A stretch of 64,000 nt of DNA from Mycolicibacterium litorale (GTDB taxonomy: Bacteria; Actinomycetota; Actinomycetes; Mycobacteriales; Mycobacteriaceae). Both the position numbers and the translations under genes were made by a program. Where the stretch lies: NCBI RefSeq assembly GCF_010731695.1, contig NZ_AP022586.1, forward strand, positions 3,844,001 to 3,908,000. The letters are read 5' to 3'. The notes under the pieces are model-generated. The model had not been told where the DNA came from. It saw nothing but the letters and a program-made list of their open reading frames with translations, and made no database searches. Shown in pieces: positions 3,425-33,832 of the stretch (position 1 is its first letter; each line of letters begins with the position of its first letter).

Positions 3425-5320
3425 TCAGGTCGCCGCAACCGGCGCCGCGGCCGGTGCGCCGAGCTTCTCGGCGTGTTCGACGACCTGCCGCAGGATGTTG
3501 AGCTGCCGTTCGAGTTCCTTGACGCGGGTGTTGCGCTCGGACTCCTCGAGCTTGGCCGCGGCGATCGTGGCCTGCAGTGATTCGTTGAGTGAGCGGGTCG
3601 TCTGGTTGGCGATCTCGCGATAGTGGTCGCGCAGTTGCCGCTGAATTCCCTTGAGCCGGTCACGCGACTCCTTGCCGACGACGAACGCCACGTCGTCGAC
3701 GAACCGGCGCACGTTGGTCTTGGCCTCGCTGCGTACCCGGAGCATCCGGTTCTCCATGTCCTCTTTGTAGGCCTTGCGGCCGAGGACGAAGCCGGCGCCG
3801 AGCGACAGCGGGTTGAACATGCCCAACCCGGCGAATGACGTCAGCATGCCGAACATCAGCACGCCGCCGTAGGAGCCGCGCATCCCGGTGACGATCTTGT
3901 GGCCGAGCTTGAGCGGTTTGGCCTCGAGGTGGGCCAGCGAACGGAACTCGGAGAACTCCGCGCCCATCTCCCTGGCGTCGATCGCGGGCATCCGGACCGC
4001 GTCGAGACCCGCCTCCATGAACGTGCGGGCCACCTCGGCGGCCAGCGCCTCGGCGCGCTGATACGCCCACACGAAGTTGTCGCCCACGGCGGTGGCGACG
4101 GCCTCTTCGAGTTCGGCGCCGATCTCGGCCCAGTGCAGGGTGGGATCGCCGGCGTCGATGACCCGTTCGGTGTGAAAGGTGATGTTGCGGAAGCGCTGCC
4201 GCAGGTCGTGGTCGACGTCGGCGGTCAGGTCGGCGATGCCGTCGTTGAGAACCTGCTGCCACAGCGCGGTGTGCTGCAGTGCGTCCTGCGCCTCCTGTTT
4301 GCGCCGCTCGAGATCGGCGGTCAGATTGCCGCGGGCCTGCGGGTCGTTGAGCGCGGACAGCTCGGACTGCACCGCCATCGTGAGATGTTCGGCGGCGGCG
4401 CGGATCTCGTTGACCACCTGTATCCGGACGCGGTCGGTGTTGCGCGAGAGCACCTCCTCGGACAGGAACTTCACGATCGCCGGGAAGTTGGACTCTTCGT
4501 TGAGTTCCTTGTCGTTGAGCTGCACGGCGTGGCTGCGCAGCGTCGAGGACACAGGGATCATCGGCGTGGTGACGCCGGCGCGCTGCAGGTGGACGCGGTT
4601 GGCGTCGGCGACCTGGCGCCAGTGCGGATACAGGTCGGTCTTGGTCGCGACGATCGCGGCGACCGGGCAGATCTCCAGCGCCTGCCGGATGAACGTCATC
4701 TCCGGTTCGGTGAACTCCTGGCTCGTGTCGCTGATCATCAGCATCGCGTCGGCATCGGGCAGCAGACCCAGCGTCGCCGACAGGTGGGGCTGGCCGTGCC
4801 CGCCGACACCCGGGGTGTCGACGAACGCCAGACCGCCCTTGAGCAGCGGGCTGGGCACAGTCACCTCGACGCGCAGCACCTCGCGGCCGCCGGCCTGTGG
4901 CGCGCGCCGCAGATCCTTGCCCAGGTCGGTGGTCGGGATCTCGACGAGTTCGGGTTCCTCCCCTTCGGGCCGGGCCACCACCAAGCGCGCCGACGGCTGC
5001 TCGGCATAGGACACGACGGTGGCCAGTACGGTCGACTCGTCGTCGCCGACCCGCGCCACCGGCATGTTCAGCAGCGAGTTGAGCAGCAGGCTCTTGCCCT
5101 GTTTGAGCTGACCGGCGATCACCACCCGGATCTGCGGATCCCCGATGCGCTTGCGCGCCCGCGCCAGTCGCGCCACGAGGTCGCCGCGGTCCTGGGCTTC
5201 GGCGATCTTCGTCGTGTGCTCGATGAGCTCGAGGACGACTGAATTGGCCGGCCCGCCGGCCGCGACTGAATTGGCCGGCCCGCCGGCCGCGACTCTGCGG
5301 GTGTCGTTCGGTGGCGTCAT
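3425..5320 (-). CDS. iniA: IniA, dynamin-like membrane-remodelling GTPase
   Basis: This 631-residue protein carries a P-loop GQLKQGKS (70-77), DTPG (168-171) and TKTD (226-229). A hydrophobic Gly-rich stretch at about 478-511 fits membrane insertion, and a coiled-coil-like C-terminus follows. IniA in mycobacteria is a dynamin-like GTPase that binds and can fuse membranes; it is induced by cell-wall inhibitors and linked to drug tolerance. It sits between iniB and iniC on the same strand. The ATG at 5320 is the only obvious start. An unusual feature is an in-frame 27-bp tandem duplication near the start, giving a repeated VAAGGPANS in residues 10-27. A strong hairpin lies just upstream, between iniB and iniA. 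Confidence 0.95.
   Translation of the reverse strand: MTPPNDTRRVAAGGPANSVAAGGPANSVVLELIEHTTKIAEAQDRGDLVARLARARKRIGDPQIRVVIAGQLKQGKSLLLNSLLNMPVARVGDDESTVLATVVSYAEQPSARLVVARPEGEEPELVEIPTTDLGKDLRRAPQAGGREVLRVEVTVPSPLLKGGLAFVDTPGVGGHGQPHLSATLGLLPDADAMLMISDTSQEFTEPEMTFIRQALEICPVAAIVATKTDLYPHWRQVADANRVHLQRAGVTTPMIPVSSTLRSHAVQLNDKELNEESNFPAIVKFLSEEVLSRNTDRVRIQVVNEIRAAAEHLTMAVQSELSALNDPQARGNLTADLERRKQEAQDALQHTALWQQVLNDGIADLTADVDHDLRQRFRNITFHTERVIDAGDPTLHWAEIGAELEEAVATAVGDNFVWAYQRAEALAAEVARTFMEAGLDAVRMPAIDAREMGAEFSEFRSLAHLEAKPLKLGHKIVTGMRGSYGGVLMFGMLTSFAGLGMFNPLSLGAGFVLGRKAYKEDMENRMLRVRSEAKTNVRRFVDDVAFVVGKESRDRLKGIQRQLRDHYREIANQTTRSLNESLQATIAAAKLEESERNTRVKELERQLNILRQVVEHAEKLGAPAAAPVAAT
5237..5290. repeat. 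27-bp perfect tandem duplication inside iniA
   Basis: Two identical 27-bp units lie head to tail (5237-5263 and 5264-5290), followed by four bases of a third. The unit keeps the iniA reading frame and duplicates nine residues near the N-terminus, before the GTPase domain. This looks like a recent slippage event. Confidence 0.95.
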
Positions 5321-28545: not shown

Positions 28546-29118
28546 TCAGCTGAGCTTGATGAAGTTCTGGTAGGACCGCGACGGCGTCGGCCCCCGCTGG
28601 CCCTGGTATTTCGAGCCGACCTTGGCGCTGCCGTAGGGGTGCTCGGCCGGGCTCGTGAGGCGCAGCAGGCAGAGCTGGCCGATCTTCATGCCCGGCCACA
28701 GCGTGATCGGGAGGTTGGCGACATTGGAGAGCTCGAGGGTGATGTGGCCGCTGAAACCGGGGTCGATGAACCCGGCGGTGGAGTGGGTGAGCAGGCCGAG
28801 CCGCCCGAGCGAGGACTTGCCCTCCAGCCGGCCGGCGAGGTCGTCGGGCAGCGTGCACAGTTCGAGGGTCGAGCCGAGGACGAACTCGCCGGGATGAAGC
28901 ACGAACGGCTCGCCGGGGTCGGGTTCGACCAGGGTGGTCAGCTCGTCCTGCTGCTTGGCCGGGTCGATGTGGGTGTACCGGGTGTTGTTGAAGACGCGGA
29001 ACAGGGTGTCGAGGCGAACGTCGATGCTCGACGGCTGCACGAGACTGTCGTCGAACGGATCGAGAGCCAGCCGTCCGGCGTCGATCTCGGCTCGAATGTC
29101 ACGATCAGAGAGCAGCAC
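28546..29118 (-). CDS. dcd: Dcd, dCTP deaminase (probably dUMP-forming)
   Basis: The protein has 190 residues from the GTG at 29118, the same length and beginning ([12 protein letters not shown]) as mycobacterial Dcd. Family motifs are present: [24 protein letters not shown] with the catalytic Glu, and [11 protein letters not shown]. The enzyme deaminates dCTP. Mycobacterial members are bifunctional and also hydrolyse the product to dUMP for thymidylate synthesis. It stands alone, leftward, beside the divergent tRNA-Gly. An upstream in-frame start at 29160 would add a non-conserved extension. Confidence 0.95.
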
Positions 29119-29177
29119 CCGACGAGAGTATCGGCTCCGGGTGATAATCTCCGTGATCACCAGCGCCAGCTGGTAAG

Positions 29178-29251
29178 GCCGATGTAGTTCAATGGCAGAA
29201 CATCAGCTTCCCAAGCTGAATACGCGGGTTCGATTCCCGTCATCGGCTCCA
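29178..29251 (+). tRNA. tRNA-Gly (anticodon CCC)
   Basis: The acceptor stem GCCGATG pairs with CATCGGC, the discriminator is T and CCA is encoded (29249-29251). The anticodon stem TCAGC/GCTGA carries loop TTCCCAA, giving anticodon CCC. The T-arm GCGGG-TTCGATT-CCCGT is standard. The 3' 45 bp of the gene is the left end of an integrated island, so the gene was rebuilt on integration and remains functional. Confidence 0.96.
29207..29251 (+). repeat. attL: 45-bp core inside tRNA-Gly
   Basis: This is identical to 33788-33832. It spans from the anticodon loop to the encoded CCA. Flanking bases differ on both sides, so the repeat ends are exact. Confidence 0.93.
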
Positions 29252-29409: not shown

Positions 29410-29967
29410 ATGTCAGCAACCGCGCCGGTGTCCCTCTATGGCGTGCGTGGGTCCGTTGAAGAGACGGCGTCGAAGGAACTACTGCAGGAGGGCGCGTTGC
29501 ACGCACTTGTTGCCGCCGCCGGTTGCGACCTCGCCCCTCCCAGGCCCGATAGGCGAGCAGTCGACTGGACCGTCACCCTGACATCGTATAACCATCAATA
29601 CATCATCGACGCCCAGATAGACGTGCAGCTGAAATGTACTCACCAATCCAAACCAGGCGATTCTGGCGACTTTCCATTCACTCTGAAGAACGACCAATTC
29701 AGAAAGCTTGCGTCAACTCACATTTCTCATCCCAAGCTCCTACTTGTGATGCTGTGCCCAGAGAACGTTGATCGATGGGTATACAACAGCAGCAACTTCA
29801 CCGCGCTTCGCCACTCGATGTATTGGCTCAATCTGTACGGCAAAGAGCCTACGGGCAAGGATGAATCCGTAGTACGTGTCCCATTCTCGAATAGGCTCGA
29901 CCCACATGAGTTATGTCGGATACTTCACATAGTCGGTAACTCACAAGGAAAGCCATGGACTTTCTGA
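29410..29967 (+). CDS. DUF4365-like nuclease-fold protein, first gene of island pair
   Basis: This 185-residue protein starts at an ATG with GGGGGAGGG just upstream. The pattern E..G...L....G followed by VDW (D52), a strand, then IDVQLKCT (Q73-L-K75) is the DUF4365 signature. It resembles the PD-(D/E)XK core, with D52 and Q73/K75 as the metal and catalytic positions. DUF4365 domains occur in defence effectors, for example the DREN nuclease of SPARDA systems. The C-terminal part (PKLLLVMLCPEN, WLNLYG) continues the family pattern. It overlaps the next gene by 13 bp, so the two are translated together. Codon use is AT-richer than in chromosomal neighbours. Nuclease activity is inferred, not shown. 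Confidence 0.75.
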   Translation: MSATAPVSLYGVRGSVEETASKELLQEGALHALVAAAGCDLAPPRPDRRAVDWTVTLTSYNHQYIIDAQIDVQLKCTHQSKPGDSGDFPFTLKNDQFRKLASTHISHPKLLLVMLCPENVDRWVYNSSNFTALRHSMYWLNLYGKEPTGKDESVVRVPFSNRLDPHELCRILHIVGNSQGKPWTF

Positions 29968-31247
29968 CGATTCCCGATCGAGACCTACAAGGCATTGGGC
30001 CGCAAGAGGTCGAAGCACTTCTGCAGAGCATCGGCTGGCAGCAACAAGGCGGCGTCCCCGGGATTTCTCGCCAGTGGGTTTACAGCGGAGACGAAAGCCA
30101 CCATGCCAGATCTGTAGTAGCCGTCGTTCCCCTCGACGCTACGTTTGATGATTACACGCGGAGGATTCGCGAGGTCCTCGACAAAATATCGAAAGTGTAT
30201 CCTCGCCGACCAGAAAGCATCCTTCTCGAGATCGAGTTGCCCGGGTCGGATGAGATAGAGAACCGCAAATATTCTCCCTCGATTTCGGGATCTATTGCAT
30301 GGCGTGCCGCAGAACGGCAGATCGTCGGTTTTCGGAAGGCCTTAGTGGCCTCAGCTAAGGCGGCCGAGGATCGACAACGTCAGTTCGCCCGATCCCACCG
30401 AAAGATTGCCCAAGAATATCTTGGTCAACTACGAATGGGGCAGACACGCCCCGGCAGCTTCATAATTACCGCACTGTCGCCTACCGGCGTATTGCCAGCG
30501 GCAGACCGAGGCGGCGTTTATGACGCTCACCTCGGAATTACAGGACGCGAAGTTGTCGAAACGCTGACGAGCAGCCTTAACACGCTTCATATCGCCGCGG
30601 ACGAGTATTTGAATGAAGATCGAGAGGAAGTCTTCGACGACACAATCGCAGATGGTGTATCAATCGATCTGATAAAGGGCATGATCGAGAATCTAGGCAC
30701 CGCCGAAGGTACCGAAATCTCTATCGACTGGAACCCCCGCGTGCCCAGAGAAGGCGGCGTGAAGTCAACTACCGTCGTCTTCGAATCCAAGCACGTCACT
30801 GCGCTGAAAACAGCCCAAAGTCGTCTGCAGAAGTTGAGCGCGCCGAGAAGCGTCACCATTATCGGCAACGTCATCAACCTTGATCGGAAGTCACCAAGAG
30901 ACCCCGGTGTAATCACCGTTGATGTCATCGACGGAGTTGACGCCGCCACGGTCAAGATTCGACTCGGCAGCGAATACAACGACACAATTGACTCGCATAA
31001 ATCCGGCGATCTCATCCGAATCGATGGAATTCTTCGCCAAGAAAACACCCAGCACTGGTTCACGGCTGTAAACGAATTGGCTTTGTTCGACTCTCGCGGA
31101 GACGTTCGCGTAGTGATAGGACCTGACACTGGAGAAGAGAGCGACCGAGCGGCTGCGCAAATCTCCACCGCCGAGATCGAACGCCAAGGTGACCCCGACG
31201 GCGATGAAGATTCCGAAAATGAGGACGCCACCGGCGAGGATGTGTAG
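29955..31247 (+). CDS. Unrecognised island protein with possible OB-fold, partner of DUF4365 gene
   Basis: This 430-residue protein is one I cannot assign to a family. The start ATG lies inside the end of the DUF4365 gene, with AAGGAAAG before it. Visible parts are: an N-terminal alpha-beta region (1-110); a helical, charged middle (about 115-165, with SHRKIAQEYLGQLRMGQT); a second helical stretch (about 195-240); and a beta-rich region at about 300-375 (SVTIIGNVINLD, GDLIRIDGILRQ) compatible with an OB-fold. The last 25 residues are strongly acidic. There is no signal peptide, membrane helix, Walker motif or nuclease motif. Overlap with a nuclease-like gene suggests a sensor, inhibitor or nucleic-acid-binding partner; this is inference. 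GC is low relative to the host. Confidence 0.8.
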   Translation: MDFLTIPDRDLQGIGPQEVEALLQSIGWQQQGGVPGISRQWVYSGDESHHARSVVAVVPLDATFDDYTRRIREVLDKISKVYPRRPESILLEIELPGSDEIENRKYSPSISGSIAWRAAERQIVGFRKALVASAKAAEDRQRQFARSHRKIAQEYLGQLRMGQTRPGSFIITALSPTGVLPAADRGGVYDAHLGITGREVVETLTSSLNTLHIAADEYLNEDREEVFDDTIADGVSIDLIKGMIENLGTAEGTEISIDWNPRVPREGGVKSTTVVFESKHVTALKTAQSRLQKLSAPRSVTIIGNVINLDRKSPRDPGVITVDVIDGVDAATVKIRLGSEYNDTIDSHKSGDLIRIDGILRQENTQHWFTAVNELALFDSRGDVRVVIGPDTGEESDRAAAQISTAEIERQGDPDGDEDSENEDATGEDV

Positions 31248-31285: not shown

Positions 31286-32345
31286 TCATAGTTGGCTTTC
31301 TGCGCCGGAGCGGATAGCGCGCCGAGCGCGGCCATGTTTGCCCGTGTGGTCGTCGGTGTTGATGAGGTGCGCGTACACGGTCAGCGTCGTCTTCACGTCC
31401 GGTGCCCCATCAACTCCGCGACGTCGATGGGCCGGATGCAAGCCGCGAGGCACAAGCTCGCGTATGTGTGGCGGAGCGAGTGAAACGACTGGTTGGGGTC
31501 GAGCTTGGCGGTCGGCGTGAGCCGATTGGCGCGCAGCACCGCCGGGCGGTAGAGGGCTTTGTGAAAGGTCGCGTGGCGTAGCGGCGTCGTCCATCCAGCA
31601 CCAACCGCTTCTCGGTCTCCGCCACGGTGAGGGCGGCCAAGGCGTCGGCCTGCCGTCGCGCGCGGGCCTACGCGGTGGCTTTCGGCGGTAAGTCTTCGAC
31701 GCCTGTAGCCCTCACTACCGATGCGACGGGCGTTGTCGGTACCGCCGCTAGGCCGGGGACGCGTCAACGTCGTACCGGGGAACAGCGGGGCGTCAGGCTC
31801 ACCCTGCGCGGATGCGCCGCGAGGTAGTCCCGCAGCAACTCGGTCGTCTCGGCGGTAAGCGGCACGCGACGGTAGCTCTGCTTGGTCTTGAGCGGGCCGT
31901 ACTCGATGGCCGCACCCTTTGCGCGCGCAGCCTGCTCGACCCGCAGCACGCCTGGCTTGGCCGGGGCGTTGGGTTCAACGGCGGGTCCGGCAGTTCGACG
32001 TTGGCGATGGTGAGCCCGCCGAGTTCCGCCGCTCGCAACCCCGCCCACGCCGCGACGTGGACCAAGACGTTGTAGGGCAAAGGGGTCGCGGCTACGAGCG
32101 CGAAACCTGTGCAGGGGTGAGGAACTCGCCCGGTCCACGACCACCCCGACCTGACCACCGTTGGTGCCGGTCTCAGTCGGGAGCTTGATGTACTCGGCGG
32201 GGCTCTTCGCCAGCCGGCCATCCACAACCGCCTGCTCCAGGACCATGCGAACGGTCCAGAACCTACGCCAAGGCGTTCGCCGTCCATGCCCGTCAGCGCC
32301 GGGGTGATCGTTCGCGCGGATATCCCGGCGAGCGCGTCTGAAAAG
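31286..32345 (-). pseudogene. Degenerate tyrosine-type integrase of the island
   Basis: Recognisable integrase pieces lie in order but in changing frames. They are: the core-binding end TVRMVLEQAVVDGRLAKSP (about 32255-32195); box I AAWAGLRAAELGGL with the catalytic Arg; LKTKQSYRRVPLT; box II FHSLRHTYASL with His and Arg; and TLTVYAHL with the catalytic Tyr near the 3' end. Consecutive pieces need four frame changes, so no functional protein can be made. The N-terminal DNA-binding part is missing or unrecognisable. This was presumably the enzyme that inserted the island into tRNA-Gly. The 5' boundary is approximate. Confidence 0.85.
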
Positions 32346-32490
32346 GACCTTGCTTAGGCAGCCATGGAACAGCTCTTGCCACATTTCGTGGCAACCGATA
32401 TCTTGATCCACATGTTGTAGCTCTTGCCAGCGACCGGTGGACTCCACAGCTGGAGTCTGTCCAAAACCGGTCGACGGTAGGGAGCGCGCA

Positions 32491-32649
32491 GTGATCACAG
32501 TTCTGGGGATTATATTCCTCATCAGCACCGTAGTGCTGGCAGCGAGCCGGACGCTCGCTATCGCAATCGCTCTGAAGGGCGCCGATTCGCGGCACCGCGC
32601 TGATATTCTGCGTGGTCTCGCCCACTGCATGCGGTGGTGGAGGCGGTGA
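32491..32649 (+). CDS. Small single-pass membrane protein in the island
   Basis: This is a 52-codon gene with GTG start 32491 and a good AGGGAG ribosome-binding site six bases upstream. The product is one long hydrophobic helix (VLGIIFLISTVVLAAS) followed by a basic end (CMRWWRR). Similar short proteins occur in actinobacteria, but I do not recognise a named family. It lies between the dead integrase and the Mrr gene, on the opposite strand to both. It could be a remnant, a small toxin-like peptide or an unrelated hypothetical. Confidence 0.45.
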   Translation: MITVLGIIFLISTVVLAASRTLAIAIALKGADSRHRADILRGLAHCMRWWRR

Positions 32650-32703: not shown

Positions 32704-33588
32704 CTATTTGGGTTCGAGGGAAGCAAAGTAGCCGGTTTCGACCTTCACGTCTTCAACCACACGCTCGGTGGTGGTGACGCCGATGGCGTTCTCCTTCAGC
32801 AAATCACACAACCGGTCCCCGTCGATCAAGTCGATGGGCGGCGCTCCATCACGCTTGGCTTCCGCCCGCGCATCGTTCGTGAAGCTGCCGGTTGTGATCA
32901 ACAGCCCCTTTTCTCCGCGACCGGCCATCGCTCCGCGAAAGTCCCGAACGGCTGAGCTACCGACACTGCCCTTGTATCGCTTGCACTGAAAAAACACCGG
33001 GAAGCTCAGCAGTGAAATTTGGTACACGCCGAGCCCATCGATACCGCCGTCGCCCGTTCTCCCGGTAACCGCCGCACTACTGAATCCCGATTCCCGCAAC
33101 AGCCGTTGAGCTAGGCGCTCGAACGCGGTCGGCGACATCTTTAGCAGCGTTTCCAGAAGCGCATCCTTCCAATCCGCCTCGGCCTCCGCTTCTACTTGGT
33201 CAAGCTCGCCCGAGACGTTCGACTTCGAAGTCTTCTTCTTGCCCTTCTTCTTGGAAACGTTCACGAACTGCTGGTGCAGCGGGACGATGTCTCCCTGCTT
33301 CGCGGCCTGCCCGGCCTCGGTTACCGTCCAGACACCCCGCTTACTGTCTGTGAGCAGTCCCATGCCCTTGAGATAGGTCCGCGCCCAACCGAGCCTGTAT
33401 TGAATTTCGGTTAGCGGTCCGTCGCCGTGCAGCACTTCTTGCTGTTTCGGCGAGTACTGCTCGCGGTCGATGACCGCCGCGTCCAATTCTGCAATTGACG
33501 CCGACCCGCCCAGGGCGATCGCAGCCTGGAGTGTCGGCCAGAGCATGTCCGTATAAGGCGGTACCGCAGCAGTCACGGTTACCAGCAT
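32704..33588 (-). CDS. Mrr-family restriction endonuclease (probable type IV)
   Basis: The protein has 294 residues from the ATG at 33588. A GTG at 33576 or a TTG at 33618 are possible alternatives; AGGA precedes the GTG. An N-terminal winged-helix domain (about 10-95, MLWPTLQAAIALGGSASIAEL) is joined by a Lys-rich linker (KKKGKKKTSK) to a Mrr catalytic domain. The PD-(D/E)XK residues are visible: D184 in GDGGIDG, and Q201-C-K203 in FFQCKRY. Mrr-type enzymes cut DNA carrying foreign methylation, and no partner methylase is present, which fits type IV. It lies next to the right end of the island. Confidence 0.9.
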   Translation of the reverse strand: MLVTVTAAVPPYTDMLWPTLQAAIALGGSASIAELDAAVIDREQYSPKQQEVLHGDGPLTEIQYRLGWARTYLKGMGLLTDSKRGVWTVTEAGQAAKQGDIVPLHQQFVNVSKKKGKKKTSKSNVSGELDQVEAEAEADWKDALLETLLKMSPTAFERLAQRLLRESGFSSAAVTGRTGDGGIDGLGVYQISLLSFPVFFQCKRYKGSVGSSAVRDFRGAMAGRGEKGLLITTGSFTNDARAEAKRDGAPPIDLIDGDRLCDLLKENAIGVTTTERVVEDVKVETGYFASLEPK

Positions 33589-33622
33589 CCTAAAGTGCAA
33601 TGGACGGTTCCAGGTCAACGCG

Positions 33623-33787: not shown

Positions 33788-33832
33788 CTTCCCAAGCTGA
33801 ATACGCGGGTTCGATTCCCGTCATCGGCTCCA
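33788..33832 (+). repeat. attR: 45-bp copy of tRNA-Gly 3' end
   Basis: This is a perfect copy of 29207-29251, carrying the anticodon loop, T-arm, 3' acceptor strand and CCA, but no 5' half. It is not a functional tRNA. It marks the right junction with the chromosome. Confidence 0.93.

Follow-up and report, generated by a model that had tools for sequence, protein, structure and literature searches.

DUF4365 nuclease-like gene and 430-residue partner gene in a tRNA-Gly island of Mycolicibacterium litorale match the phage defence candidate PDC-M02

Two adjacent genes of the analysed window, the whole 64,000-nucleotide stretch of Mycolicibacterium litorale DNA, are assigned by profile matches to PDC-M02, one of the phage defence candidates (PDC) catalogued in PADLOC-DB (2023), v2.0.0. 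The product of the first gene, protein A (185 aa), matches PDC-M02A (best model PDLC04282, E 4.5e-77), and all 25 families listed for it carry that name; the product of the second, protein B (430 aa), matches PDC-M02B (best model PDLC04322, E 8.5e-211), as do all of the best 25 of its 34 families. Six B and two A relatives, scanned in the same way, also match PDC-M02. The two genes lie side by side on one strand and overlap, and no feature was found which separates this locus from the catalogued system. An earlier note on this DNA had described the pair as a candidate undescribed defence system with no named counterpart known to it; both genes match PDC-M02 models, so the pair is catalogued and not undescribed, and on these matches it is a further member of the candidate system.

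According to passages of a 2026 paper (PMC12988326), PDCs come from a guilt-by-embedding approach, credited to a 2024 preprint by Payne et al., and most of them are without experimental validation. The name PDC-M02 occurs in none of 5.39 million open-access papers, a set without preprints in which 10 papers name DUF4365, nor was any phage test of the pair found there. Added here are a quantified pairing of the two genes, a HicA-like and a weaker OB reading of protein B, a minimal form in Nostoc and an exchange of the pair at a prophage slot; the Payne preprint may already hold some of these. Outside PADLOC-DB, NCBIfam matched neither protein, and PHROGs matched both only with families without known function.

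The tRNA-Gly island

The features of the locus are listed below, with the evidence for each in brackets.

29178..29251, + strand: tRNA-Gly (CCC) (ARAGORN; Rfam RF00005)
29207-29251, + strand: boundary repeat 1 of the island, the last 45 bp of tRNA-Gly (exact repeat)
29410..29967, + strand: PDC-M02A, DUF4365 PD-(D/E)XK-type nuclease, predicted, 185 aa, putative active site D52, Q73, K75 (PF14280, PDLC04282, conservation, active-site analogy with passages of PMC10810196)
29955..31247, + strand: PDC-M02B, 430-aa partner (PDLC04322, domain profile comparisons)
31289..32630, - strand: tyrosine integrase, broken remnants in several frames (weak PF00589)
32704..33618, - strand: Mrr-type restriction endonuclease (Mrr_N + Mrr_cat), 304 aa (PF04471 E 1.6e-31, PF14338 E 1.1e-18; PADLOC mREase_IV E 7.1e-33)
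33788..33832, + strand: boundary repeat 2, the second copy of the 45-bp tRNA-Gly 3' end (exact repeat)

Both reading frames of the pair were recovered at the positions first given for them (29410-29967, +, 185 aa; 29955-31247, +, 430 aa), with the 13-bp overlap. The description of the surroundings as a tRNA-bound island with a Mrr enzyme also holds: exact 45-bp repeats stand at both ends, and the Mrr gene is found at 32704-33618 on the minus strand. The 4.6 kb enclosed by the repeats contain the A/B pair, the remnants of a tyrosine integrase and the Mrr gene. GC content is 54.8% in the pair, 59.7% in the island and 68.6% in the window. Integrase similarity is limited to a PF00589 match under the family cut-off (E 0.0056, residues 81-123 of the ORF at 31396-31767), and the genome-wide profile search gave no integrase match at E<=0.001 within 31289..32630. 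The island is taken to have arrived by horizontal transfer, as an element with a now broken integrase. The Mrr enzyme, encoded on the strand opposite to the pair, represents a separate type IV-like restriction candidate. The tRNA was the sole match of an Rfam scan, and a promoter and terminator scan returned values at or under the shuffle means. On the other side of the tRNA lies a minus-strand gene (28546-29160), which by eye is taken for dcd.

Integration at this tRNA-Gly(CCC), a hotspot, is seen in other genomes of the genus too. Among the matches listed from 60 genomes searched, 17 same-genus genomes were picked for a nearby second copy of the tRNA end, and in 13 of these 17 an exact 27-bp core stands at either end of the retrieved stretch, whose length ranges from 1 to 35 kb. 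Neither PDC-M02 A nor B was found in any of the 19 tRNA-Gly stretches of the 17 picked genomes (L094-L112). When 139 non-overlapping ORFs from these stretches alone, each 130 aa or longer, were scanned with PADLOC, the best 25 of 111 families included strong matches to Druantia DruE, to the methyltransferase models DruM, MTase_II and DrmMII, and to SoFic; the DruM, MTase_II and DrmMII matches perhaps come from the same two genes.

Pairing and distribution of the two genes

A and B form one module, carried by mobile elements. The set of B loci comprised 39 distinct cases, namely 11 from 401 Mycobacteriaceae genomes, 5 from other genome contigs (a sixth contig came from a genome already among the 11), 1 viral contig, 1 prophage type, 8 from genomes of another genus of the same class and 13 from plasmids, after removal of three plasmid records (Entomospira, Paenarthrobacter, Caballeronia) out of 16 as duplicates by their equal scores. 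A DUF4365 gene lies directly upstream of B in 37 of these 39 loci, L009, in which a single frame covers A incompletely, being counted as a pair. In the remaining two the locus appears damaged: L028 retains only B model positions 65-358, and L040 has sequence directly upstream that by eye looks like a transposase.

Approached from the side of A, the 401 Mycobacteriaceae genomes contain 43 PF14280 matches, distributed over 39 genomes. B follows the DUF4365 gene in 22 of 22 cases with a short frame (303 aa or less), among them L089, counted as a pair with B split and about 1 kb off, and in none of the 21 stretches with a long frame (325 aa or more), a division by frame length that was noticed after the fact; 19 of the 21 long-frame stretches continue for 1.5 kb or more beyond the frame, and the other two run into a contig end after 202 and 386 bases. 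The conserved co-occurrence that the earlier note had named as a check is borne out. Distances among A proteins follow those among B proteins (Mantel r 0.93 over 43 non-redundant pairs, a value reached by 0 of 2000 permutations), and 27 of the 43 pairs have a 4-base overlap between the stop of A and the nearest start of B. Four of the long-frame proteins (from L220-L240) were tested against Pfam, which sees DUF4365 alone in them; the long-frame proteins possibly belong to other effector systems.

The distribution of the pair is patchy. It was found in at least 21 of the 401 Mycobacteriaceae genomes, and among the same-genus genomes of that sample B was matched solely in the window's own genome. 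Pairs were recorded in Actinomycetota, Alpha- and Betaproteobacteria, Spirochaetota, Bacillota and Cyanobacteriota, and B alone on one Bdellovibrionota plasmid. Three Nostoc plasmids combine DUF4365 with a B of only 179-180 aa (L118, 5510-6543; L215, 2640-3673; L216, 2375-3405). The short B of L118 aligns to model positions 2-75 joined to 281-356, which corresponds to the N- and C-terminal parts with the middle missing; it is still recognised as PDC-M02B by PADLOC (E 2.2e-39). Integrase genes were seen near DUF4365 and the short B on Nostoc plasmids.

Domain composition of the two proteins

Protein A matches PF14280 (DUF4365) with E 1.1e-13 over residues 29-173 of 185. D52, Q73 and K75, singled out earlier as marks of a DUF4365 nuclease-like protein, are invariant in a 21-row alignment; over the 43 non-redundant pairs D52 and Q73 are conserved in all 43 and K75 in 42, the exception being L088. 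In TmuRE, a DUF4365-APAZ protein, passages of PMC10810196 describe Q62 and K64 as potential active-site residues, with Q62A/K64A used as the inactive form, and report that the TmuRE complex degrades DNA non-specifically after its Argonaute has found a target. Because the D, Q and K residues are conserved and the Q and K have this counterpart in TmuRE, the prediction of A as a PD-(D/E)XK nuclease is well supported. A search of PDB sequences gave no match for A.

Protein B, reported earlier as not assignable, indeed matches no Pfam family at E<=0.001. Besides an acidic tail, three parts may be distinguished in it: a HicA-like N-domain (about 14-90), a middle (about 90-290) and an OB-like C-domain (about 298-378). 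Against a HicA profile (22 sequences), hhalign gave the N-domain 78.6% and a score of 26.1; the maximum over 50 column shuffles was 12.9, the reversed profile scored 9.6, and, as background, the DUF4365 profile scored 18.3 (6%) against the same HicA profile. Single sequences point in the same direction below the Pfam cut-off, PF07927 (HicA) being matched by 3 of 31 B relatives (best E 0.0024, P0007). HicA proteins carry a catalytic histidine, and at its position only 2 of 30 aligned rows have H. These alignments suggest that B begins with a HicA-like domain without the histidine, and B differs from HicA also in being far larger.

At the other end, PF01336 (OB) is matched by 8 of 31 B relatives (best E 6.2e-5); P0007 matches both PF01336 and PF07927, each under its Pfam cut-off. 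The C-domain aligned to PF01336 with hhalign at 32% and a score of 21.7, above a shuffle maximum of 15.9, and one cross-control, with the C-domain columns shuffled and set against HicA, reached 29% and 20.4; because of this cross-control the hhalign match is weak, and the OB reading leans more on the PF01336 matches in relatives. The OB-like beta region of the earlier note has its PF01336 matches in 8 of 31 relatives and gains little from an hhalign score hardly above one cross-control shuffle, and the C-terminus is described, with less assurance than the N-terminus, as possibly OB-like. The acidic tail is present in the window's B; it is not conserved and is missing in distant relatives. The middle, the largest part of B, was assigned to no family; its RMGQT...GS block is the most conserved in nearer relatives and much less so over all 43 pairs. 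That the large protein senses or restrains, as the earlier note supposed, stays an inference; with a HicA-like and an OB-like part at its ends, nucleic-acid binding becomes more likely, and B probably binds nucleic acid.

A search of PDB sequences with B gave four weak unrelated matches. An Argonaute- or APAZ-like identity of B was considered and rejected at the sequence level, there being no such match in Pfam or PDB (E<=1), in agreement with the earlier statement that the partner is not an Argonaute.

Proposed mode of action and alternative explanations

The best explanation, held with confidence about midway, is that of a PDC-M02 candidate defence pair carried by a small integrative element at tRNA-Gly, with A as a PD-(D/E)XK nuclease effector and B as a multidomain nucleic-acid-binding sensor and scaffold, whose HicA-like and OB-like ends would flank the middle that is absent from Nostoc. 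B would hold A inactive in the uninfected cell; upon infection it would recognise an infection-specific nucleic acid or nucleoprotein and gather copies of A, which would then cut DNA (or RNA) and thereby end the infection or the cell. Such a mode would resemble that of the SPARDA effector DREN, with B in place of the APAZ-Argonaute; DREN alone is described, in passages of PMC12205087, as a monomer with undetectable activity which is activated by tetramerisation.

The likeness to SPARDA (short Argonaute + DREN-APAZ; TmuRE-Ago, NbaSPARDA) lies in the DUF4365/DREN effector with its Q73-x-K75, to be compared with Q62/K64. Differences are that no APAZ is fused to A (185 aa, DUF4365 at 29-173) and that no Argonaute stands beside it, B having no Argonaute match and the other intact gene of the island being Mrr; on its sequences, the pair is not a SPARDA member. 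More tentatively, PDC-M02 could represent an Argonaute-free immunity in which a DREN-type collateral nuclease is placed under a modular sensor (dead HicA-like + OB); the 180-aa Nostoc partner would then be the sensor in its minimal form, to which the middle adds recognition or regulation. The papers cited here explain DUF4365 nucleases through Argonaute systems; a widespread pair with the same kind of effector and another partner would illustrate how a single nuclease can be coupled to various sensors. With its 180-aa partner, the Nostoc form would be a compact version for testing.

Among contextual features, the strongest sign of a defence role comes from M. abscessus prophages. Two prophage records of 60,696 bp match the pair, which occupies genes 1 and 2 in the one that was read. 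The same slot holds an antitoxin and a GepA-like toxin in prophiGD04-1 and prophi68-1, two sister prophages without a difference in the 7 kb that were compared. Both kinds of prophage begin with 102 bp in common (94%) and agree again over 2939 bp from positions 3918/1685 onward (96.5%); between these parts the sequence is replaced, save for a 307-bp piece at 78.5%. In related MabE1 prophages (L035, L217), either the PDC-M02 pair or the GepA-like toxin-antitoxin is found at the same att-proximal end, which amounts to a natural allele swap, the two differing in annotated proteins and in strand. Passages of an mBio paper (PMC8092301) place the GD04-1 toxin-antitoxin proximal to the attachment site, and several mycobacteriophage toxin-antitoxin systems in att-linked defence loci. 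The record MW584148 (L218) has prophiGD25-1 in its title and prophiGD57-1 in its locus tags, and its length is 52,581 bp, the table of the same paper giving 60,696 bp for prophiGD25-1.

This exchange of slots also fits a toxin-antitoxin pair, in which A would be a toxic nuclease, B its neutraliser, and any phage protection would follow from the release of A. The small size of the first gene, the tight overlap and the resemblance of the N-domain of B to the HicA fold point the same way. B is, however, mostly 370-430 aa long, with probably two recognisable domains, and usual antitoxins are smaller; its HicA-like part is without the histidine, and the 180-aa Nostoc B is compatible with either explanation. 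A toxin-antitoxin identity is considered unlikely.

Little weight is likewise given to a type IV-like restriction system, with B as a specificity subunit which reads modified or foreign DNA and A as the subunit that cuts, no cell death being involved. The type IV-like Mrr lies in the same island as the pair, A has a motif of restriction-endonuclease type and B may bind DNA; moreover, no methyltransferase was found among the seven longer island ORFs covered by the Pfam scan, which also distinguishes the locus from type II restriction-modification. Against this, B has neither a Pfam base-recognition domain nor a motor, and two DUF4365 nucleases cut non-specifically once activated, according to passages of PMC10810196 and PMC12205087.

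The defence-island enrichment that the earlier note had proposed as a check was evaluated on 20 loci, of which five similar ones (L188, L189, L192, L194, L196) and L184, without called A/B, were dropped, leaving 14 loci with 104 of 144 neighbour genes; the control consisted of 104 of 144 genes from 14 of 16 stretches. The neighbours matched 72 PADLOC families and the control genes 77, the counts being of families and not of genes; an enrichment is not demonstrated, because the 72 do not exceed the 77. The best 25 of each set were listed, and generic helicases dominate among those of the control. A mobile-element maintenance or DNA-processing pair which travels with islands by chance would be consistent with this result and with the carriage of the pair by plasmids and prophages, and is nevertheless judged improbable in view of the patchy presence in at least 21 of 401 Mycobacteriaceae genomes, the swap with a toxin-antitoxin at the attachment end of prophages and the independent cataloguing of the pair as a PDC. 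The five similar loci and L180, all of one genus, seem to have the genes around the pair in common, by gene sizes alone, suggesting a fixed chromosomal position there. Single neighbours of the pair match the HamB, DrmMI, PD-Lambda-3_B, DpdE and PDC-M23B models of PADLOC, and DUF262 and Abi genes are found close to the pair in Entomospira.
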